DNA of 64,000 bases from contig NZ_KB375281.1 in the NCBI RefSeq assembly GCF_000336555.1, forward strand, positions 3,261,848 to 3,325,847, given 5' to 3'. The notes beneath the pieces were generated by a model. The model saw only the letters and a list, made by a program, of their open reading frames with translations, made no database searches and had not been told where the DNA came from. Of the stretch, positions 52,577 through 64,000 are shown one piece after another. This DNA comes from Afipia clevelandensis ATCC 49720 (lineage in GTDB: Bacteria; Pseudomonadota; Alphaproteobacteria; Rhizobiales; Xanthobacteraceae). Made by a program: the position numbers and the translations under genes. Each line of letters opens with the position of its first letter. Within the stretch, counting starts at the first letter, position 1.

Positions 52577-52897
52577 TCAGACCGCAGCCGTGATCCACTG
52601 CTGCAGCTTGGCTTTCGGCGCTGCGCCGACCTGGCGGGAAGCCATTTCGCCGCCCTTGAAGATCATCAGGGTCGGAATCGACATCACGCCATATTTCGAG
52701 GCCGTCTTCGGGCTCTCGTCGACATTCAGCTTCACGATCTTGACCTTGTCGCCCATGGCGCCGGCGATTTCGTCGAGAGCAGGCGCGATCATGCGGCACG
52801 GGCCGCACCATTCCGCCCAGAAATCCACCACGACCGGCCCGTTCGCGTTCAGCACTTCCTTGTCGAAATCGGCGTCAGAAACCTTACCCACACTCAT
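52577..52897 (-). CDS. trxA: Thioredoxin
   Basis: 106 residues. Active site WCGPC (30-34) and cis-Pro in [10 protein letters not shown]. It is the general cytoplasmic disulfide reductant. As in many alphaproteobacteria it follows addA; here the gap is 208 bases, so it may have its own promoter. Confidence 0.97.
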
Positions 52898-53105: not shown

Positions 53106-56100
53106 TCAGGACACCAGCGATTGCAGCTCTGCGTCCAGCGCGGAGGCCGGGATTTCCATCAGCGCAGCCGTTTCTGTCCACAGGAGCAGGCAGCGCACAT
53201 CGTGGCCCGGATAGAGCCGCCGCAGCACATCGCGATAGAGCGCAAGCTGGCGCACATAGGCCTGCGGCGCATCGGCGACCGCGGCGGGCGGCGCATGATT
53301 GGTTTTGTAGTCGACAATCAGCACCTCGTTCGGCGTCACCACCAGCCGGTCGATCTGACCCGACACCAGCGCGGGCGGGCGTCCGGCCCGTGGCACACGT
53401 CCCGCAACCGAAACCTCCGCGCGGCTGCCTTGCCCGAACACCGGTGCGAAGGCGGGCGTCTCGATCAGCGCGATGACTTGCCGCGCCAGTGCGATGCATT
53501 CCTCTTCGGAGAACAGCGGTTCGGCGTTGCGCCGCAGGAAATCGAGCGCAGCCTTCTCGCGCCGCTCGCCTGCGACATCGGGGAGCGATTGCAGCAGCCG
53601 ATGGATCAGCGTTCCGCGCTTAAGGGCGCGCTTGCGCGCGGCGCGCGTTTCGTCGGTGATAATGCGATGGCCTTCGCCTTCGCCCGGCGATGAGTCCGAC
53701 GGCCGCAGCAGGATGTCGGCGGGGCCTTCCTTCGGCGCAGGTGTCCTGAGCCAGCCGGGGAATTGTTGGAGGGCCAGCATCTCCTGAACCGGCGCAGCAC
53801 TTTCTCCTTGCGGTTCGACGTCCTGCGGGCGCGCGTAGCGCTTCACGGGGCCGAAGCCCGTTGCGATGATCTCGCATTGCAATCCTGATTCCGGGTCTGC
53901 GAGCCCTTTCTGGATGAGGTCGTACCAGGAGAGCTTGCGCACCGCGCGCATGTTGCCGGGAAGCACGCCGCCGACAATCAGGCGATCGGCGGCGCGTGTC
54001 ATCGCGACGTATAGCAGCCGGCGATACTCATCTTCGGTATCGTTCTTCATCGCGTCGCGGGCCGTCGCGACCATGGGCAGATCGAACGCCTTCTTGCCGG
54101 CCCAGAGCACAATGGCCGGTGCATGTGGCGCGGCATTTCCCTGCGCCTGCAGGCGAATGAGATTCGTCCGCTGGGTGTCGGCCGGCGAGGTTGTCGTATC
54201 GACAACGAATACAACCGGCGCTTCAAGGCCCTTTGAGCCGTGTACCGTCATCACGCGGACTTCGTCGCGCGCGATTTCCATGTCGCGCTTGACCTCGGTA
54301 TCGGCCGCGCGCAGCCATGCCATGAAGCCTTGAAGGGAGGCCGGCCCTTTGCGCTCGTAAGTCAGCGCCAGTTCGAGAAATTCGTCGAGCGCGTCATCGG
54401 CCTCCGGCCCGAGCCGCGCGAGAATACGTGCGCGTCCGCGGTCAGCGCCCAGCAGCCAGGCGTAGAAGGAGAACGGCGTTTCCTGTGCGAACCGTTGTTC
54501 GTATCGCTTCAGCCGGTCCAGCGCAGTTGCGATTTTTTCGTCGGTTGCGGCATGCGCCGCGAGCGCATCGCGGAGCGATCCCGCGCGGTCAGGCGCGAGC
54601 GAGAGCAGGTGGTCATCGTCGAGACCGAACAGCGGACTCTTCAGTGCGACCGCCAGCGCAAGATCGTCGCGCGGCAGCAGCAGCGCATCAGCGAGATTCA
54701 TCAGGTCGATGACCGCAATGTGTTCGGTCAGCTTGAGGCGGTCAGCGCCTGCAACAGGAATGCCGGCATGCTTCAGCGCCTGGATGATCGCGTCGAACGC
54801 GCGGCCCCGGCGCCGCACCAGCACCAGCAAATCGCCGTAGCGTAGCGGGCGGCGTTTGTCGCGGGGGCCGGTCAAGGTGCGCGCGGCAATCAGCGATCGA
54901 ATTTCCGTCTGTACTCGCCGGGCCAGGCGCACTTCGGGACTTGTCTCCGCGATGTGGTCGAATGCCGCGCTCCAGCCCTCGATATCCTCTTGTGTATCGG
55001 GAACTTCAATCTCCCACAGGTCGATCTGGGCCGGGGCCGCATCCTGCAGCGCCATGTGCGGCGGCATGCCGTCGAGATCGGTCGTGACACTCTTGTAGAT
55101 TCCGGAGTCTTTGAAGGTGCTGGTGACGGCCTGCAGCACGCCTTCACCGGAGCGGAACGAATAGGTGAACGACACTGGATCGAAACGCAGCCCGGCAGCT
55201 TCGAACCGTTCCTTGATATCCCGTCGGCGATGATCGAATTCGCGTGGCATGGCGCCCTGAAACGAGAAGATCGACTGCTTCTCGTCGCCGACCGCGAATA
55301 TCGTTCGCTTGACGCCGTCACGCGCGCCCGCGCCGGTGGTGAATTCCGCCGTCAAGCAGTCGATGATGTCCCATTGCCGCGGGCTGGTGTCCTGCGCCTC
55401 GTCGATCAGGACGTGATCGATGCCGCGATCGAGCTTGAAATGCACCCAGCCGGACGACACGCTGGTCAACATTTCGTAAGTCTTGTCAATCAGGTCATCG
55501 TAATCGAGCAGGCCGCGTTCCTGTTTCTCGCGACGATAGTTGTTGGCTGCGGCAGTCGCGATCACGAACAGGGCAAGCGCCCGGTCGCGCGCCCGGGTGG
55601 CGCGAAGCCGGGCGATTAGCGGCGCAACGCGGTCGCGCTCGTTCCTTGCCAGCGTCATCAGAGCGGGAAAATCGTCCCTGAGACCCTTGCTGAGAAGGTA
55701 GCGGTCTTCCTTGGCGGCGCCGTCGTCCTTCAAGAAGAACTCGGCATAGTCGTCGACTGCGTCCGGCCAGCCGCTCTGCATTGCTGCGGACAAGCGCGCG
55801 GCCTGGGCGTTGTCGATGTTGTTTCCCGTTTCCATCAGGCGTGCGATGAGCGCTCCGCAATCTTCTAGCGAGAGAGAATGGCGTGAAATCTCCGCAACAA
55901 GCGCGTCAGAGGCGTCGGCCTCACCGATCCCGAGTGCTTGCGAAAGGGCGGCATGCGCTCGCTCCCGCGTTTTGACGGTATCGGACCATTTGACGAAATG
56001 ATCGCGGCTCAGGCAGGCCTCGCGCACCACGTCCTTGAAGGTCACGTCGGCGGCGGCGGACATGGCGATATTCAACGCCCAGCCCGCATCGCTCTCGGGT

Positions 56101-56624
56101 GATTGAGCCGCTTCGAGGAGCACCGCCAGGTTGGCGCGCTCCATCATCTCGTTCTGATCGCGGTCATCAAGCACCGAGAATCGCGCAGGCACATTTGCTT
56201 CGAATGGAAATTGCTGCAGCAGTCGGGTGCAGAGCGCGTGAATGGTCTGCACCTTTAGTCCGCCGGGTGTCTCAAGCGCACTCGCAAACAGCTTTCGTGC
56301 CCGCAGGCGCGTCTGCGCTGTCGCCGCCGGTGCGCCGACAGCGCGGATTGCCTCATCCAGCTCGCGCTCAGGCAGTGTCACCCAGCGACCCAGCGTCTCG
56401 AACACGCGCTGCGCCATGTTGGCGGCCGCCGCCTTCGTGAAGGTAATGCAGAGAATTCTCTCGGGGGGCACGCCGTTCAGCAACAGCCGTATGACACGAT
56501 TGACCAGAACATGCGTCTTGCCGGATCCGGCATTGGCGGCGACGAAAGCGGAGACATCCGGATTCGATGCTCGCGCCTGAGCATCGCGCACGGCATCGGG
56601 GATGTTCTTGCGCGGAGAACTCAT
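53106..56624 (-). CDS. addA: Double-strand-break repair helicase/nuclease AddA
   Basis: 1172 residues from ATG 56624, overlapping the addB stop by four bases (ATGA). UvrD-type helicase: Walker A ANAGSGKT (30-37), Walker B VLIDEAQDTSPRQWDI, motif VMTVHGSKGLEAPVVF. The C-terminal RecB-like nuclease has SGQIDRLVV and LIVDYKTNHAPP, so it is catalytically intact. With AddB it resects double-strand ends for RecA. Confidence 0.96.
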   Translation of the reverse strand: MSSPRKNIPDAVRDAQARASNPDVSAFVAANAGSGKTHVLVNRVIRLLLNGVPPERILCITFTKAAAANMAQRVFETLGRWVTLPERELDEAIRAVGAPAATAQTRLRARKLFASALETPGGLKVQTIHALCTRLLQQFPFEANVPARFSVLDDRDQNEMMERANLAVLLEAAQSPESDAGWALNIAMSAAADVTFKDVVREACLSRDHFVKWSDTVKTRERAHAALSQALGIGEADASDALVAEISRHSLSLEDCGALIARLMETGNNIDNAQAARLSAAMQSGWPDAVDDYAEFFLKDDGAAKEDRYLLSKGLRDDFPALMTLARNERDRVAPLIARLRATRARDRALALFVIATAAANNYRREKQERGLLDYDDLIDKTYEMLTSVSSGWVHFKLDRGIDHVLIDEAQDTSPRQWDIIDCLTAEFTTGAGARDGVKRTIFAVGDEKQSIFSFQGAMPREFDHRRRDIKERFEAAGLRFDPVSFTYSFRSGEGVLQAVTSTFKDSGIYKSVTTDLDGMPPHMALQDAAPAQIDLWEIEVPDTQEDIEGWSAAFDHIAETSPEVRLARRVQTEIRSLIAARTLTGPRDKRRPLRYGDLLVLVRRRGRAFDAIIQALKHAGIPVAGADRLKLTEHIAVIDLMNLADALLLPRDDLALAVALKSPLFGLDDDHLLSLAPDRAGSLRDALAAHAATDEKIATALDRLKRYEQRFAQETPFSFYAWLLGADRGRARILARLGPEADDALDEFLELALTYERKGPASLQGFMAWLRAADTEVKRDMEIARDEVRVMTVHGSKGLEAPVVFVVDTTTSPADTQRTNLIRLQAQGNAAPHAPAIVLWAGKKAFDLPMVATARDAMKNDTEDEYRRLLYVAMTRAADRLIVGGVLPGNMRAVRKLSWYDLIQKGLADPESGLQCEIIATGFGPVKRYARPQDVEPQGESAAPVQEMLALQQFPGWLRTPAPKEGPADILLRPSDSSPGEGEGHRIITDETRAARKRALKRGTLIHRLLQSLPDVAGERREKAALDFLRRNAEPLFSEEECIALARQVIALIETPAFAPVFGQGSRAEVSVAGRVPRAGRPPALVSGQIDRLVVTPNEVLIVDYKTNHAPPAAVADAPQAYVRQLALYRDVLRRLYPGHDVRCLLLWTETAALMEIPASALDAELQSLVS

Positions 56625-59600
56625 TCCTCGTCCTCTCCGGTTCCGCCTGCGGACCACTCCTTGATGCGGGCAAGATCGTCGTACTTGCCGTAGCGGTTCT
56701 CCCACATCGGGAGAACGACCGAGAGATAAGGTGTCTCCCCTCGGTCGAACTTGCGGATCAGGCCCTCCAGTTTTTGAAATGCTTCATCAGCGGCCTGATC
56801 GGGCAACTGCGGCGGATCGCTTCTATTGACCTTCAGTTCAAGTACCGTTGCCTTGCCGGGCGGATTGTTGCCGCTAAGCCGGACATAAACGAGTTCATCA
56901 ACGGAAGAGGCCGCGGGAATGGCAGCAAAGCCGCCGCGCCGGAGGATCGCCGCTTCCAGAGTGAGTTGCGGCGAGAGGCCAAGGCGGACCTGTTTGGCGC
57001 TGGGCGGCTGGCCGGTCTTGTAGTCAAGGATCGCGTAGCCGCCGCCGAGGCGCTTCTCAATGCGGTCGGCGCGCGCCGAGAGGCTGAAGGCGCGTCCATT
57101 GCCCAGGGGGATCGAAATCTCGCCGCGAATTTCGGCGTCGACGCGCGCAACATCCACCCGCCGCCTTGCTTCCCATCCTGCGAACCAGTCGGCGATGCGC
57201 AGAAATCGCGGCCACCACAAGGCGCGCGCCTCCGGGCGCTCCATCAGCGGCGCAAAATGCGTGGCGCCGATTTCGCGCAGGGCGCTGGCGACATCGCCGG
57301 GCAGGGCATCCGCGAACCGCGTGGTGAATTCGCCGAGCGCCTCGTGAATGGCCGATCCCCGGTCCGCCGCCGTCAACGGCATGTCGACGGGATCGAGCGG
57401 CGTCAGCCGCAAAATGCGTTTTGCGTAGATCGTGTAGGGATCGCGAAGCCAGTCCTCGATTTCGGTCACTGACATGACCAGAGGACGAAGCCCGACATCC
57501 GGCTTCGGCTCCGGCCGCGCGACCGGCGCGACACTCGACGGGCGATCGAGTTCATCGGCATAACGGACATAGGTATCGCCGCGCGCTTTGATGTCCGCCC
57601 AGAGTTCCTTTCCCACGACGGCTTCCATACGGTGCAGAAAGCGCGAGGCCACCGCAGGGGCGCCGCCGACCTTCGCCGCGCGTGAGAGGATGACTTCTTT
57701 CGTGCCGAGCAACTGCGCAAAGTCGTGCGCGGACAGGCCGATGCGCCGTTCCGGCAGATCGAGGCCGAGCTGGTGGCGCATCGGGCGGCTCAACCACGGA
57801 TCGACCCGGGGCGCCGGCGGCCAGACGCCTTCCACAAGCCCGCCGAGGATCACGCGGTTGCATTCGGTCAGGCGCGCTTCGAGCGGGCCATAGATGCGAA
57901 GCGAGGCCGCCGATTGCGGACGGCGCACGATGCGATCGCCGAACGCGGTCTGGAACACCTCGGGATAATCGCCGAGTGTGAGCGTCAGGCCGCTCGGTGG
58001 CGGCTTGCGGTCCTCAGCCGAGGATTCTCCGGTCTGGAACAGGTCATCGAACGCTTTCGACAGCGCGCCGCCATCGGAATCCTCAAATGCGCGAAGAACA
58101 CCCTTGTCATCCGCGCTCAGATTCCGCAGCACCTCGTGATGGCACGCGGCAAACGCCATCAGGTCATGCGGTTTTCCGGGCCGCAAGTCTTCCAGCGGTT
58201 TGAGTGCGGTTGTCAGACCGGCGATGAGGGCGCCCACGCCATCTAGCACAATGTCATCGAGCTGCGCGCGCGGCTCGGAATAGTGGATCGTGGATGGCTC
58301 CCTGCGCCGGAGCTTTCCGAGTTCGTCGCGGAAGCGCGCAAAGTCACGCGCAAGGCCTTCGCTGCCGGGCGCCGGGCGCGGTCCGCGCATCAGGGCAAGT
58401 TCGAGGTCGCCAATGGCTTTGGTCAAAGCGCCTTGTGCACGGCCCAGCCGGAACAGCGGATGCTTGAGGAGCGCCAGCAGCACCGGCGGCGCCAGTTCGT
58501 CCGCAACAGCCTGTGCCGTTAGCCGCGCAAAGATGCCGGCCGGGGTGTCCATCAGGGAATCGCCGCCGGAGTCGTCGAAGGCGAGATTCCATCGGCCCAG
58601 TGAAGCCATGACGCGGCGTGCGAGCGCACGATCCGGCGTGACCAGCGCCGCCGTGAGATTCCGTTCACGCGCCTCGCGCATGGCCGTGGCGATGGCGAGC
58701 GCTTCCATCTCGGGATTGGCGGCTTCGATCAGGGTAAGGTTTTCGGTGGCGGAGGCGATGCGCTGCGTGATCGCCTTGTCGGAGAGTTGCGTATGCCATT
58801 TTTCGCTCGACGTCGCGGGGCGCATTGTCTCGGACATCAGCACCTCGCGGCCATAGGAAGCCGGTGCGGCGAGTTGTTCGACATCACGCCGCTTGATGCC
58901 CAATCTCTCCAGCAAGCCATGAAGCGCAAATTGCGGATGGCTCCAGGCGGCGGGTGTCGCGACAAGATCCCCGGCAGCGACCGTGCCGCCGATCTGGTCC
59001 CAAGCCGCTTGATCGAGATCGTTGTCGAGGCCGGGCAACACCACAGCGCCCTGAGGCAACTGCGCAATCGCATGCAGGAATTTTGCGGTGGCGGGCATCG
59101 AGCCGGTCGAGCCTGCCGCGATCACCGGGCCTTTCTGGTTGGCCTTGAGCCGGCTCGCTTCCATTGCGATCAGGAGGTCGCGCCGGGCCGCCGGTTCGAT
59201 GCGGTCGATCTGCGCCAGATGCTCCGGCCAGGTTTCCTTCGCGATTTTCAGGAAGGCCAGCGTGTGCTGCCAGTAGATGTCGAGCTCGTCCGGCACGATG
59301 GTGTCCAGCGCATCCCAGCCGACCCCGCGTGTGACCATGTCGTCCATTAGCCGCGCAAGGTCGCCCGCCAGCGCAAGCGTCGATGCGGGGCTTCCGACCA
59401 CAAGAGACGCGGGCTGCCGTTTGGCCCAGGCGGCAACCAGCCGCGCCAGTGTCAGTCTTCGCGCGAGGTCATCCAGTTTCGGCGGCAGCAGGGATGCCTC
59501 GGAGCCGCCGAGTTGGCCATCGTCGGAGAATTCCAGTTCATCCTCGTCGACGCTGCCGAGTGCGACAATGCGCGGAAGGACCACGGCATCGCTTTGCAAC

Positions 59601-59782
59601 ACGTCGAGGAACACCTCGCGCGCCAGCCGGCCCGCGCGCCGGGTCGGCAGATAGAGCGTGGCGTCGGCCAGCCGTTCAGGATTTGCGCGCGCGTCGAATC
59701 CTGCGACCAGCCTGCCATCGACAAGCGCCGAAATCACCGTGTGAAGGAACGGTGCAGAGGATGGGACATTGAAAACGTGCAT
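56621..59782 (-). CDS. addB: Double-strand-break repair protein AddB
   Basis: 1053 residues, alphaproteobacterial type. The C-terminal nuclease has RGSAIHEALGEF and GGYAILDYKTGQPPSAKQ. No N-terminal Walker A is visible, and the whole chain has only two cysteines (AACHHE and LTECNR), so it cannot carry the four-Cys iron-sulfur cluster of Bacillus AddB. It still would cut the second strand during resection. A start at ATG 59782 follows GGATCC; murU is 56 bases upstream. Confidence 0.95.
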   Translation of the reverse strand: MHVFNVPSSAPFLHTVISALVDGRLVAGFDARANPERLADATLYLPTRRAGRLAREVFLDVLQSDAVVLPRIVALGSVDEDELEFSDDGQLGGSEASLLPPKLDDLARRLTLARLVAAWAKRQPASLVVGSPASTLALAGDLARLMDDMVTRGVGWDALDTIVPDELDIYWQHTLAFLKIAKETWPEHLAQIDRIEPAARRDLLIAMEASRLKANQKGPVIAAGSTGSMPATAKFLHAIAQLPQGAVVLPGLDNDLDQAAWDQIGGTVAAGDLVATPAAWSHPQFALHGLLERLGIKRRDVEQLAAPASYGREVLMSETMRPATSSEKWHTQLSDKAITQRIASATENLTLIEAANPEMEALAIATAMREARERNLTAALVTPDRALARRVMASLGRWNLAFDDSGGDSLMDTPAGIFARLTAQAVADELAPPVLLALLKHPLFRLGRAQGALTKAIGDLELALMRGPRPAPGSEGLARDFARFRDELGKLRRREPSTIHYSEPRAQLDDIVLDGVGALIAGLTTALKPLEDLRPGKPHDLMAFAACHHEVLRNLSADDKGVLRAFEDSDGGALSKAFDDLFQTGESSAEDRKPPPSGLTLTLGDYPEVFQTAFGDRIVRRPQSAASLRIYGPLEARLTECNRVILGGLVEGVWPPAPRVDPWLSRPMRHQLGLDLPERRIGLSAHDFAQLLGTKEVILSRAAKVGGAPAVASRFLHRMEAVVGKELWADIKARGDTYVRYADELDRPSSVAPVARPEPKPDVGLRPLVMSVTEIEDWLRDPYTIYAKRILRLTPLDPVDMPLTAADRGSAIHEALGEFTTRFADALPGDVASALREIGATHFAPLMERPEARALWWPRFLRIADWFAGWEARRRVDVARVDAEIRGEISIPLGNGRAFSLSARADRIEKRLGGGYAILDYKTGQPPSAKQVRLGLSPQLTLEAAILRRGGFAAIPAASSVDELVYVRLSGNNPPGKATVLELKVNRSDPPQLPDQAADEAFQKLEGLIRKFDRGETPYLSVVLPMWENRYGKYDDLARIKEWSAGGTGEDEE

Positions 59783-59838: not shown

Positions 59839-60561
59839 TTACGCCACGCTGGCGAGCAGGGCTTCTTCCGCGGCCCCGACCGCATCCGGCGTGCCGACAT
59901 GCATCCAGGTGCCGTCGAGCCGCAATCCGAACAGACGTTCCTGCTCGTTGGCGGCGTCGAACATTTTCGTCAGGGAGAATTCGCCGGCCGGCGCATTGCT
60001 GAAAACCGCGGGCGAGATGATCGCCGCGCCGGCATAGACGAACGGCACCACCTGATGCTCCTTGCGCTTGCGCAAGGCGCCGTCGGTCAGCATCGCATAG
60101 TCACCCGCGCCGGAATAGCCGATGCTGTTCGCCGTCGGCGCCATCAGCAGCAGGATGTCCATTCGCGCCGGATCGAAGGCGTCGGCAAGACGCAGCAGAT
60201 TGGGATGAACGCTGTCGATCCACATCGTGTCCGCGTTGAGGTGATAGAACGGCGCGTCGCCGAGCAGCGGCAGGGCTTTCACCACTCCGCCACCGGTGCC
60301 GAGCACCATGTCGCGTTCGTCGGAGATAATGACGCGCGGGGAGGTGCGGTCCTTGACGTGCTGGATGATCTGATCGGGAAGATAATGCACATTCACCACG
60401 GCGGTGGTGACGTTGGCCTCGGCGAGCCGGTCGAGGACGTGATCGAGCAGCGGCTTGCCTGCGACCGGCACCATGGGCTTCGGCATCTTGTCGGTCAGCG
60501 GCCGCATGCGCGTGCCGAGGCCGGCGGCGAGAACCATGGCGGAAGCGGGATGGACGGGCAT
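59839..60561 (-). CDS. murU: N-acetylmuramate-1-phosphate uridylyltransferase (MurU-type)
   Basis: 240 residues, sugar-nucleotide transferase fold. AMVLAAGLGTRMRPLTDKMPKPMVPVAGKPLL is the nucleotide-binding start; LNADTMW holds the metal Asp. Its short length and location next to the AmgK-type kinase identify it as MurU, which converts MurNAc-1-P to UDP-MurNAc in peptidoglycan recycling, bypassing MurA. A generic mannose/glucose-1-P transferase is the alternative, less likely here. Confidence 0.88.
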   Translation of the reverse strand: MPVHPASAMVLAAGLGTRMRPLTDKMPKPMVPVAGKPLLDHVLDRLAEANVTTAVVNVHYLPDQIIQHVKDRTSPRVIISDERDMVLGTGGGVVKALPLLGDAPFYHLNADTMWIDSVHPNLLRLADAFDPARMDILLLMAPTANSIGYSGAGDYAMLTDGALRKRKEHQVVPFVYAGAAIISPAVFSNAPAGEFSLTKMFDAANEQERLFGLRLDGTWMHVGTPDAVGAAEEALLASVA

Positions 60562-60731: not shown

Positions 60732-61049
60732 TCAGACTTCGATCATCTGCGAGCCGCTGGGGCGGCGGGCGGATTTCTTCTTCTCAGGCTTGAGGAAGCC
60801 TGCACCGATCTGTTCGCCATTGACCCAGGAAAGTTCGCAGCGGCGATAGGCAAGACCGGTCGACGACAGCAGCAGAAAAAATTCCTTCAGATTCAGGCCC
60901 TCGACCGATCCTTCCACGGTGAGCTTCGCGCCGGTCTCGGAAATATCCTCGACCAGGCAGTTCCGGCGCCATGTTCCGTCGATCCCCATCAGGTGAGCCG
61001 CAAAACCACGCTCGAAAACCACGCGATCGCCTGCACGCCGTTCGGCCAT
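60732..61049 (-). CDS. PilZ domain protein
   Basis: 105 residues from ATG 61049. It begins ERRAGDRVVFER (an RxxxR-type motif) and continues with CLVEDISETGAKLTVEG, matching the D/NxSxxG element of c-di-GMP-binding PilZ domains. It has no other domain. It sits between tsaE-amgK and murU on the same strand (130 and 170 bases either side). Whether it binds c-di-GMP depends on the Arg spacing, which looks acceptable. Confidence 0.87.
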   Translation of the reverse strand: MAERRAGDRVVFERGFAAHLMGIDGTWRRNCLVEDISETGAKLTVEGSVEGLNLKEFFLLLSSTGLAYRRCELSWVNGEQIGAGFLKPEKKKSARRPSGSQMIEV

Positions 61050-61179: not shown

Positions 61180-62703
61180 TCAGGCCGCGGGGGGCGGGAC
61201 GTGGGTCATGCACCACTCGCGGAAAATTTCCAGCGAGGGATGTGCGAGCGCCCGGTTCAGGTAGGTCCAGACCCGGGGCTGGTGCCGCAGATATTGCGGC
61301 TTTCCGTCGCGCCGGTTGAGGCGGGCGAAGGTGCCGAGCAGCCGCGTGTTCCGCTGCGCCGACATGATCGCGTATTGCCGGGCGAAGGCTGCGGTATCGA
61401 AGGCGGGATCTGCCGTTTTGCGCAGTTTCACATAGCGGGTGAGCATCGTGAGCTCGACGCTTTCGGGAACGTCGATCCGGGCATCCTGCAGCAGCGAGAC
61501 CAGGTCGTAGGCGGCAGGCCCCATCACCGCGTCCTGAAAATCGAGCAGGCCGACGCGCTGAATGTCCTTCCGATGCGCCAGCCAGATCAGGTTCGGCGAA
61601 TGAAAATCGCGCAGCGTCCAGGTCTTCGATGCATCCGCGAGTTTGGCGAACAGGTCGCTCCAGATCAGCAGGAAATCCGCCTGCATGTTGCTGGTCAGCG
61701 TCACGCCCTTGTCGGGCAGATACCATTCCGGCATCAGCCCGACCTCGATCATCATGGCGTTGTCGTCGAACGGCGGCACGGTGTAATCGCGATGCGGCGC
61801 GAACGGCAGCACGTCCGGCAATTGTTCTTGATGGAGTTCCGCCAGCATGTCCACCGCCGCCTGATAGCGCTCGGCGATCGGCTTCGGCGGATCGCCGGTG
61901 ATGAAGGTGTCGCGGCCAAAATCCTCGGTAATGAGAAAACCTTCATCGAGGTCGGCATGATGTATCGCGGGCGCCGAATAGCCGCGCTCGCGCAGGCCGT
62001 TGGCAATCGCGACGAACGGTCTGACGTCTTCCGCGAGATGGACTGCCTCGCTGTAGGATTTTCCGTCATAGAGCGCCGGTCCATCGGGACGGCGCGGCGA
62101 GTTCATCAGGATGGTGGTCTGATCGTTCTTCGTCAGCCGTGCGTAGGAGCGCGTCGATGCGTCGCCCGGCATGCGTTGACGCTTCGCATCGAGGGTACCC
62201 GACAACTCGAGAAAGCGGCGCAGCGCCGCGAGCCGTTCGACCTTGGCTTTGAGTTTGCCGTAGCCGGTGATCTCGGCCGCGCGCGCGCCGGTGCCGAGCG
62301 ACGGGCGATGACTGAGCGCGATGTCGATGCGGTCCGGCGGCAACATGTCAGGTGCGCGTTCCGGCCATTCGATCAGCGCCACGGTGCCGTCCGGCAGCGG
62401 TGACAGCCCAATCTCTTCCAGCTCGTCCGGATCGGCGATCCGATAGAGATCGGCATGCAGCAGCGGGAACGACGGCAGGTCGTAGGTCTGCGCCAGCGTA
62501 AAGGTCGGGCTTGGCACTTCCAGGTCGTCATCCTGCGCGAGATAGCGGATCAACGCGCGGGCGGCGGCGGTCTTGCCCGCTCCGAGATCGCCGGACAGGG
62601 TGATGACATCGCCTGCACTGAGCAGCAGTGCGAGATCGGCCATCAGATGACCGGTGGCGGCCTCGTTGGCCAGCGCCGTGTGGAATGTCGCGGGATCGCT
62701 CAT
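61180..62703 (-). CDS. tsaE-amgK: TsaE-AmgK fusion: tRNA t6A ATPase / amino-sugar anomeric kinase
   Basis: 507 residues, two enzymes in one chain. Residues 1-145 are TsaE: Walker A GDLGAGKT (38-45), PSPTFTL, and the IEWPERA signature (111-117). Residues 150-507 are an aminoglycoside-phosphotransferase-like kinase with catalytic RDFHSPN (D366, N371) and metal motif LDFQD (D388), the pattern of AmgK, which phosphorylates MurNAc/GlcNAc at the anomeric carbon. MurU downstream completes the recycling pair. Its start overlaps the divL stop by four bases (ATGA). Confidence 0.92.
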   Translation of the reverse strand: MSDPATFHTALANEAATGHLMADLALLLSAGDVITLSGDLGAGKTAAARALIRYLAQDDDLEVPSPTFTLAQTYDLPSFPLLHADLYRIADPDELEEIGLSPLPDGTVALIEWPERAPDMLPPDRIDIALSHRPSLGTGARAAEITGYGKLKAKVERLAALRRFLELSGTLDAKRQRMPGDASTRSYARLTKNDQTTILMNSPRRPDGPALYDGKSYSEAVHLAEDVRPFVAIANGLRERGYSAPAIHHADLDEGFLITEDFGRDTFITGDPPKPIAERYQAAVDMLAELHQEQLPDVLPFAPHRDYTVPPFDDNAMMIEVGLMPEWYLPDKGVTLTSNMQADFLLIWSDLFAKLADASKTWTLRDFHSPNLIWLAHRKDIQRVGLLDFQDAVMGPAAYDLVSLLQDARIDVPESVELTMLTRYVKLRKTADPAFDTAAFARQYAIMSAQRNTRLLGTFARLNRRDGKPQYLRHQPRVWTYLNRALAHPSLEIFREWCMTHVPPPAA

Positions 62704-64000
62704 TCAGCGGCGTTGCGGAAGGTCTGGTCGGCGGGGAATTCGCATGTCACCGTCGTGCCCTTGCCGACGACGGAGTCGACATAGACCTTGCCGCCGTGCA
62801 GTTCGACGAAGGAGCGCACCAGCGACAGGCCGAGACCCGCGCCGCGATGGCGCGACCCGTTGGCATGGCTCTCGAACCAGTCGAACACCTTGTCCTTGAC
62901 CTCTTCCGGAATGCCGGGGCCGGTGTCGGATACGGAAAACACGACGCTGGCATTGCTGCGGCGGGCGCGGAGCACGACGGTGCTGTTCGGCGGCGAGAAG
63001 CCGACCGCATTCGCCAGAAGATTGTAGAGGACCTGTACGATGCGGCGTTCGTCGGCGACGAAATCGCCAATGGCGGGATCAATCTGGACGTCGAGCCGGA
63101 TGTTCTCGCGGGCAAGACGGTCCTGAATGCCGGCGGTCGCCTCCTCGACGGTCTTGCGCAAATCGACCGGTCCGAGATTGAGCTTCATCGCGCCCGCATC
63201 AATGGTGGCGAGATCGAGGATGTTGTTGCTGATGGCGAGCAGCGCGTCGGTCGAGGTGGTGATGTAGCTGAGATACTCGCTTTGCTTCGCGGTCATCGGC
63301 CCGGTGGACGGATCGCCGAGGAAATGCGCGAAGCCGATGATCGAGGTCAGCGGCGCGCGCAACTCGTAGGACATGTGATGCACGAAGTCGATCTTCATCT
63401 GATCGGCGGTTTCGAGCGCTTCGTTGCGCTCGCGCAAGGCGCGCTCGACATTCACGGTATCGGTGACATCCTGGAAGGTCAGCATGGTCGCGCCGTCGGG
63501 CAGCGGCATGGTGGTGCAGTCCAGGACGCTGCCGTCCTTGCGTTCGAGCCGCAGCGGGACCGGGGAGCGATTGTCGATGCCGGTGATGGCGCCGCGCAGG
63601 GTCTGCCATGTGGTGTCGTCGTCGAACAGTGGACGGCACCATTGCTCGATGGCTTCGACATGCGGCTGCTGCGCCAGTTGTTCGGTTGAAAGTTTCCACA
63701 TCCGCGCGAACGGCGGATTGAACAATTGGGCGCGGCCGTTGCTGCCGAACACGGCGACGGCTTCGGCGAGGTTGTCGAGCGTCTCGCGCTGGACGCGGAT
63801 CAGGCCGTCATTCTGCCGTGCGAGCTTGAGGCTTTCGGTGACGTCGTCGAAGAGGTAGGTGACGCCGCCTTCCGGATTGGGCGTGGTGACGACACTAAGC
63901 GCGCGTCCGTCCGGAAGGTACCAGGTGTCTTTCGCAGGCTCGATGGCGCGGTAGGCTTCGAACAGCTTGTTCTTCCAGGCGCGGAAATCGGTCTGTTCGG
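62700..64000 (-). CDS. divL: DivL-like PAS sensor pseudo-histidine kinase, C-terminal part (5' cut by window edge)
   Basis: 432 residues are visible; the frame is open to position 64000. Two PAS-like segments (TWYLPDGRALSVVTTP, then LDNLAEAVAVFGSNGRAQLFN) precede a dimerisation helix and an ATPase domain (N box NLLANAVGFSPP, DTGPGIP, GAGLGLSL). The H-box reads HHMSYELRAPLT, with Tyr (codon 63368-63366) at the normal phospho-His position. This Tyr is the hallmark of Caulobacter DivL, which controls CckA and thus CtrA. The N-terminal membrane and first PAS parts are outside the window. Confidence 0.88.
   Translation of the reverse strand, partial: EQTDFRAWKNKLFEAYRAIEPAKDTWYLPDGRALSVVTTPNPEGGVTYLFDDVTESLKLARQNDGLIRVQRETLDNLAEAVAVFGSNGRAQLFNPPFARMWKLSTEQLAQQPHVEAIEQWCRPLFDDDTTWQTLRGAITGIDNRSPVPLRLERKDGSVLDCTTMPLPDGATMLTFQDVTDTVNVERALRERNEALETADQMKIDFVHHMSYELRAPLTSIIGFAHFLGDPSTGPMTAKQSEYLSYITTSTDALLAISNNILDLATIDAGAMKLNLGPVDLRKTVEEATAGIQDRLARENIRLDVQIDPAIGDFVADERRIVQVLYNLLANAVGFSPPNSTVVLRARRSNASVVFSVSDTGPGIPEEVKDKVFDWFESHANGSRHRGAGLGLSLVRSFVELHGGKVYVDSVVGKGTTVTCEFPADQTFRNAAE

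Follow-up and report, generated by a model that had tools for sequence, protein, structure and literature searches.

Introduction

DivL of Caulobacter crescentus is described as lacking both kinase and phosphatase activity and as binding phosphorylated DivK (DivK~P) via a docking surface of its dimerization and histidine phosphotransfer (DHp) domain, while its catalytic and ATP-binding (CA) domain and the phosphorylation of the DHp domain are dispensable for its essential role (PMC4211667). It activates CckA except when DivK~P is bound (PMC9430884, PMC7200025). The residue Tyr550 is stated to be conserved throughout alphaproteobacterial DivL homologues, with the exception of Magnetospirillum magneticum, which has Ala (Childers et al. 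2014, PMC4211667), and DivL with the mutation Y550H gained DivK~P-stimulated autokinase activity and harmed division (PMC4211667). Here we analyze the divL gene at the end of a 64,000-nucleotide stretch of the Afipia clevelandensis ATCC 49720 genome (contig NZ_KB375281.1, positions 3,261,848 to 3,325,847; hereafter, the window), and compare the residue at its phospho-acceptor position across the Alphaproteobacteria.

The Afipia protein turned out to be a normal, ordinary member of the family that shows no departure from the known circuit. The new observation is that, as read from the genomes compared, the residue at the phospho-acceptor position differs among natural DivL proteins: entire lineages have His in all members examined, and some of these lineages look catalytically complete. 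The literature searched, whose partial coverage is no proof of absence, contained no report of a His-bearing DivL.

Identification of the Afipia divL gene

The window holds the last 432 codons and the stop codon of divL (62700..63998, minus strand). The gene extends past the window, and the upstream sequence, once retrieved, yielded a full frame of 838 codons (L009:6548-9064:-) with the PAS array that the sequence-only reading had expected there. A hydrophobic stretch at approximately residues 59–80, noticed by eye, is a candidate membrane anchor; it is followed by Pfam matches to the PAS fold (233–294), PAS_7 (352–464) and, more weakly and with no stretch passing alone, a PAS_4-like domain (480–588; 63453..63779, minus strand; these coordinates, as well as those of the CA domain and the N, G1 and G2 boxes, were obtained by arithmetic). 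The C-terminal part consists of HisKA, that is, DHp (608–675; 63192..63395, minus strand; 52.8 bits vs. the cut-off of 26.9), and HATPase_c, that is, CA (722–830; 62727..63053, minus strand). This is the DivL-type layout, an N-terminal membrane anchor and several PAS domains before the DHp/CA core.

In the H-box, FVHHMSYELRAPLTSI, the position of the phospho-accepting His of canonical HisKA domains is taken by Tyr617, whose codon is TAC (63366..63368, minus strand). Among the 21 HisKA domains of the host genome (4.4 Mb, a single contig), 20 have His and DivL alone has Tyr, in agreement with the sequence-only reading. A sequencing or frame artefact as the source of this residue was ruled out, as all 80 relatives read have it too. 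In the ATPase domain, the G1 box (SDTGPGIP, 62907..62930, minus strand), the G2 box (GAGLGLSLV, 62817..62843, minus strand) and both Asn residues of the N-box (NLLANAVGFS, 62994..63023, minus strand) are intact; the N-box Lys position is Lys in 16 of 17 control kinases, Gly in Afipia DivL and Arg in Caulobacter DivL.

In a phmmer search against 177,635 distinct PDB sequences, the top match was Caulobacter DivL, 4q20 (E 7.4e-38, 133 bits; 112 for the runner-up), and the aligned H-boxes are SYELRAPLT in Afipia and SYELRTPLT in Caulobacter. The two cores share only 36% identity over the length of the model, an AlphaFold2 prediction for residues 590–838 built from the window protein and 14 relatives (mean pLDDT, the predicted local distance difference test, 76). 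Foldseek comparison of this core with 350,542 PDB chains again placed 4q20 on top by E-value. In the reverse search of the Caulobacter DivL core against the 21 HisKA kinases of the host genome, Afipia DivL came first with 132.0 bits (102.5 for the next one), and it kept this place when the Tyr was masked (128.7 vs. 101.4 bits).

The host genome also encodes the complete Caulobacter-type partner set DivK/CckA/ChpT/CtrA. CckA (1285.8 vs. 1000), ChpT (269.1 vs. 240) and CtrA (422.7 vs. 350) exceed the NCBIfam equivalog cut-offs, hence the pathway whose absence would have spoken against DivL is present. PleD exceeds its NCBIfam cut-off as well (725.1 vs. 474), and the adjoining gene encodes a receiver protein with DivK 1m5t as its best structure (E 2.2e-55), which we assigned as the DivK candidate without an NCBIfam cut-off; a PdhS-like kinase is also encoded, below the cut-off. 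Because sequence, fold, reciprocal best match and the complete CckA–ChpT–CtrA/DivK set agree, we identify the gene with high confidence as the DivL orthologue of Afipia, a membrane-anchored, multi-PAS pseudo-histidine-kinase with Tyr617 in its DHp domain, which most likely does not phosphorylate itself, and which would use the DHp/CA core as a DivK~P sensor and stimulate CckA.

Several observations weigh against this conclusion. The fold match discriminates poorly, since ordinary kinases reach TM-scores of up to 0.73 vs. 0.70 for 4q20. Of the 82 NCBIfam matches, 25 were shown; DivL is not among their names, and each of them lies below its cut-off. In the rooted core tree one ordinary histidine kinase, on a very long branch, was placed on the DivL side, and Tyr is no strict mark of the family, since the residue in some best matches is His, Phe, Val, Thr or another one. 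Finally, two of the DivK-docking positions differ, Y562 and H579 of Caulobacter DivL being replaced by Phe and Tyr, respectively, as read off the alignment.

Conservation of the tyrosine

The named relatives, the best 80 of 128 found by search patterns that did not include the H-box, have Tyr in 80 of 80 H-boxes read. The nearest of them, from Afipia, are up to 95% identical at the protein level, so the closest homologues do not have His. Tyr is present as well in the aligned DivL of Caulobacter (4q20), and in 29 of 29 H-boxes of the order sample; this sample comprises only the best-scoring of the 239 matching genomes and is skewed towards close relatives. When plasmid records were searched with two His-DivLs as queries, 9 and 7 of them matched. 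Among the five read, the four full-length matches (Sinorhizobium meliloti, Rhizobium, Shinella and Sphingomonas) have Tyr, and the Tistrella record contains a partial kinase match with His.

For the class sample, 174 of 289 genomes matched at E 1e-40, with only three candidates per genome scored; 149 of the 174 were examined (the other 25 had no listed place), with one match each, a second match in G053 being set aside. Without two loci lacking a kinase core and L235, which ends short of the H-box, 146 loci were readable, and some low scorers among them may be other kinases. We observed Tyr in 126 (the window gene included), His in seven, Phe in four, Thr in three, and Val, Arg, Ser, Gly, Gln and a TAG stop in one each, compared to His in 15 of 15 next-best kinases taken from such genomes as a control. 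Thus, Tyr as a signature of DivL describes all 80 named relatives read and most of the class, some orthologues having His, Phe or another residue, and it is less universal than PMC4211667 states.

Two kinds of rare variants deserve mention. The four Phe-DivLs (L092, L107, L118 and L161, the first two from the window's own order) are a natural counterpart of Y550F. In L119 (genome G260, a draft), an in-frame TAG falls exactly at the H-box Tyr codon; this is probably an assembly or point error.

Histidine-bearing DivL proteins

His-DivLs were found at L116, L188, L195, L197, L200, L221, L222, L358 and L364–L391, which belong to the GTDB family f35, to the genera g81 and g154 of the family f79, and to the genome G203. 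In f35, His occurs in all 23 genomes with a match (25 searched); in f79, it occurs in 12 of 18 (g81, 2 of 2; g154, 10 of 10), and the remaining six have Tyr. We rejected the possibility that these matches are mere paralogues, as each of the seven class-sample genomes with His has one protein far ahead of all others: the His protein reaches 338–488 bits, and the second-best match does not exceed 168 bits. This check covered 15 genomes including these seven, with 65 of 88 first-look candidates scored in G078, 65 of 73 in G171, 65 of 68 in G033, and every candidate in the remaining four. Downstream of five of the seven His loci lie tsaE and amgK; they were not seen within 1.5 kb of L116 or within 3.45 kb of L195.

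In the core tree rooted with other kinases (151 of 194 DivL rows, near-duplicates, partial sequences and the stop row being omitted, together with 10 of 15 decoys and seven of the host's 20 other kinases), the His rows are nested among Tyr-bearing DivLs, and the split between DivL and the kinases has an SH-aLRT (approximate likelihood ratio test) support of 93. In a better-resolved tree of 60 hand-chosen rows, built without an outgroup, f35, f79 and one Tyr genome of the family f3 form one clade (99/95), and the His sequence of G203 falls in a separate clade with Tyr sisters. By the approximately unbiased test, a single His clade could be rejected neither for f35, g81 and g154 together (p 0.19) nor for g81 and g154 (p 0.40).

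Catalytic boxes and DivK in the variant lineages

The nine N, G1 and G2 positions were compared on the core-tree alignment, which holds 10 of the 23 f35 and six of the 10 g154 proteins. The complete set of nine is present in 12 of 12 His rows of f35 and g81 and in 16 of 17 control kinases; for the Tyr rows this number is 59 of 120, or 90 of 120 when the Lys is left uncounted. The His row of G203 keeps eight. None of the six g154 His rows keeps all nine: these proteins (L221, L222, L364, L367, L369 and L371) retain the H-box and only one or two of the positions.

DivK was present in all six f35 and all ten f79 genomes searched, including the eight that belong to the f35 and g81 His groups; the match is weak in one incomplete genome, G536 (73% complete), where the best one is only 54% identical. 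At E 1e-20, DivK was found in none of the six searched genomes whose DivL has Thr, Gly, Gln or Arg. This is in line with the joint loss of DivK and of the kinase part of DivL that Brilli et al. described (PMC2877005) and that has also been reported for Rhodobacterales (PMC9430884). There is no clean rule: the Tyr genomes G004 and G272 likewise have no DivK at E 1e-20, the matches in G203 (His) and G126 (Phe) are weak (44% and 41%, respectively), and G162 and G242 have DivK, their DivL matches having no readable kinase core. ChpT was found in 23 of 24 genomes searched, including eight of f35 and 12 of f79.

Proposed function of Afipia DivL

By analogy with Caulobacter, Afipia DivL would most likely be devoid of autophosphorylation, its DHp/CA core would serve as a receiver-docking module sensing DivK~P, and the protein would stimulate CckA, which via ChpT would set the level of CtrA~P; the missing kinase activity, the sensing of DivK~P and the control over CckA are all carried over from the Caulobacter work. 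The Afipia protein possesses the parts that such a role requires. In Caulobacter, mutants at R553, T557, Y562 and H579 of DivL lost DivK~P binding, and the A601L mutant grows badly (PMC4211667). The first two positions are retained in Afipia as R620 and T624 (numbering by counting), and the equivalent of A601 is also Ala.

One may ask whether the gene encodes an ordinary sensor kinase, not DivL, that was recently deprived of its His. Its HisKA and HATPase_c domains are of a generic kind, and other kinases make up the NCBIfam matches shown, all sub-threshold; yet full-length or nearly full-length relatives carry Tyr in all the named loci and in the large majority of class-wide best matches, which does not fit a recent loss. 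The reciprocal best match with Caulobacter DivL and the tsaE neighbour shared with Sinorhizobium, Rhizobium and Sphingomonas also speak against it. No second, better DivL was seen in the host genome: a single match at E 1e-40 was reported, with three of 32 first-look candidates scored, and none of the other 20 HisKA kinases outscores the Afipia protein against Caulobacter DivL. On the PDB best match and the reverse search we rejected this explanation, which we regard as hardly credible. Only marginally better is the standing of a true tyrosine autokinase, in which the intact ATP site would phosphorylate Tyr617 and the phosphotyrosine would carry a signal. The preserved G1, G2 and N-box Asn residues, the Glu kept next to the Tyr, and the title of 4q20, which names Caulobacter DivL a tyrosine kinase, are in line with it, whereas the N-box Lys is replaced by Gly, Caulobacter DivL lacks autokinase activity, has weak affinity for an ATP analogue and does not need a phosphorylated DHp domain for its essential functions (PMC4211667), and, among the 146 best matches, four from other genomes have Phe and one has Val, neither of which can be phosphorylated. 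Given the published results and these Phe and Val proteins, we rejected it also, as very improbable, and retain the interpretation of Afipia DivL as a pseudokinase that senses DivK~P.

Gene neighbourhood

Downstream of divL, the window contains tsaE::amgK (61180..62703, minus strand), a single open frame with TsaE and AmgK/APH domains, the former above the NCBIfam cut-off and the latter below it; the stop TGA of divL and the start ATG of this frame share the ATGA at 62700..62703 (minus strand), as read from the sequence. The sequence-only reading spoke of a fusion by this overlap: the overlap is there, but the genes merely overlap and the proteins are not fused, the fusion being that of the TsaE and AmgK domains with each other. 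Further genes on the minus strand are a small open reading frame (ORF; 60732..61049), a murU-like gene for N-acetylmuramic acid 1-phosphate uridylyltransferase (59839..60561; best NCBIfam match, below the cut-off), and, by domain matches, addB-like (56621..59782; PDDEXK_1) and addA-like (53106..56705; UvrD helicase and PDDEXK_1) genes, followed by a trxA-like thioredoxin gene (52577..52897). Upstream of divL are dut-like and coaBC-like genes, named from the sequence by eye.

The small ORF, found after amgK in 75 of the 80 named loci, has RRxxDR and DxSxxG-like motifs and was called PilZ-like by eye only; it had no Pfam match at E 1e-3. A reader of cyclic di-GMP at this position would be of interest.

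The same order of divL, tsaE, nucleotidyltransferase gene, addB, addA and trx is known from the bvrRS operon of Brucella abortus, where reverse transcription PCR demonstrated co-transcription within a 16-gene operon with conserved synteny (PMC9491525); this was the only paper found in the literature search for DivL together with TsaE. The Brucella operon differs in having the bvrRS–PTS–ahcY part, absent directly upstream of divL in Afipia, and a predicted protein between addA and trx, whereas the small ORF between amgK and murU is an extra of Afipia. DivL of S. meliloti (PMC11500502) and Rhizobium has the H-box SYELRSPLT, with tsaE and a nucleotidyltransferase gene following; the differences are ahcY upstream of divL in these records and, in S. 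meliloti, the annotation of divL and tsaE nine bases apart.

Among the named loci, the ATGA overlap is kept in 76 of the 77 where tsaE was found (the exception is L088; in three of 80 tsaE lies outside the fetched stretch). The order tsaE–amgK–small ORF–murU–addB was recovered in 70 of 80; six loci show its first part only, one lacks the small ORF only, and three show none of these genes, a count that may include loci cut by a contig end. For the class, after 30 loci with short flanks, nine with less than 3.3 kb downstream and two without a core had been omitted from the 149, 108 loci with 3.3 kb or more of downstream sequence remained. In 34 of them tsaE is the adjacent gene, in another 27 it lies within 3.5 kb, and in 47 it went undetected. 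In 16 of the 25 loci where it is at least 0.9 kb away, the longest intervening frame is reductase-like and on the opposite strand (counted by eye).

Since the overlap is conserved and the Brucella block is co-transcribed, divL and tsaE::amgK likely share one transcript, an idea largely published for Brucella, and the block divL–tsaE/amgK–murU–addB–addA–trxA, conserved in relatives, is probably an old alphaproteobacterial one that is co-transcribed. A regulatory tie between control of the cell cycle, on one side, and peptidoglycan recycling and tRNA modification, on the other, as proposed initially, would go one step beyond this. Were the overlap a dedicated link coupling CtrA control to peptidoglycan recycling rather than part of an inherited block, its retention in nearly all named loci with tsaE would be expected, and peptidoglycan recycling does matter for Caulobacter division (PMC13046382); however, the class-wide neighbourhood is loose, the housekeeping genes addAB and trxA belong to the same block, and the sequence reveals no mechanism. 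We therefore consider such a link unlikely and prefer the inherited block.

In an 880-kb record of Sphingomonas parapaucimobilis that is labelled a plasmid (L393) there are ahcY–divL–tsaE–phosphotransferase–nucleotidyltransferase genes, which would be expected on a chromosome.

Implications

The Afipia gene adds one genome to the bacteria with a complete DivL–CckA–CtrA circuit, and the wider comparison matters more. The natural His-DivLs are evolution's counterpart of the Y550H experiment. Judging from their sequences, we tentatively suggest, as a possibility falling somewhat short of the probable, that DivL is not a pseudokinase everywhere: in f35 and g81 it may function as an active DivK kinase/phosphatase that descended from Tyr-bearing ancestors and recovered the His, while His-DivL of g154, with its destroyed ATP site, would possibly be an ATP-free phosphotransfer or phosphatase module. 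If this is true, DivL forms a natural series consisting of a Tyr sensor, a revived kinase, an ATP-free phosphotransferase and a kinase-less remnant. With the His-DivLs it becomes testable whether the pseudokinase state is reversible and what the circuit requires in order to tolerate the reversal.

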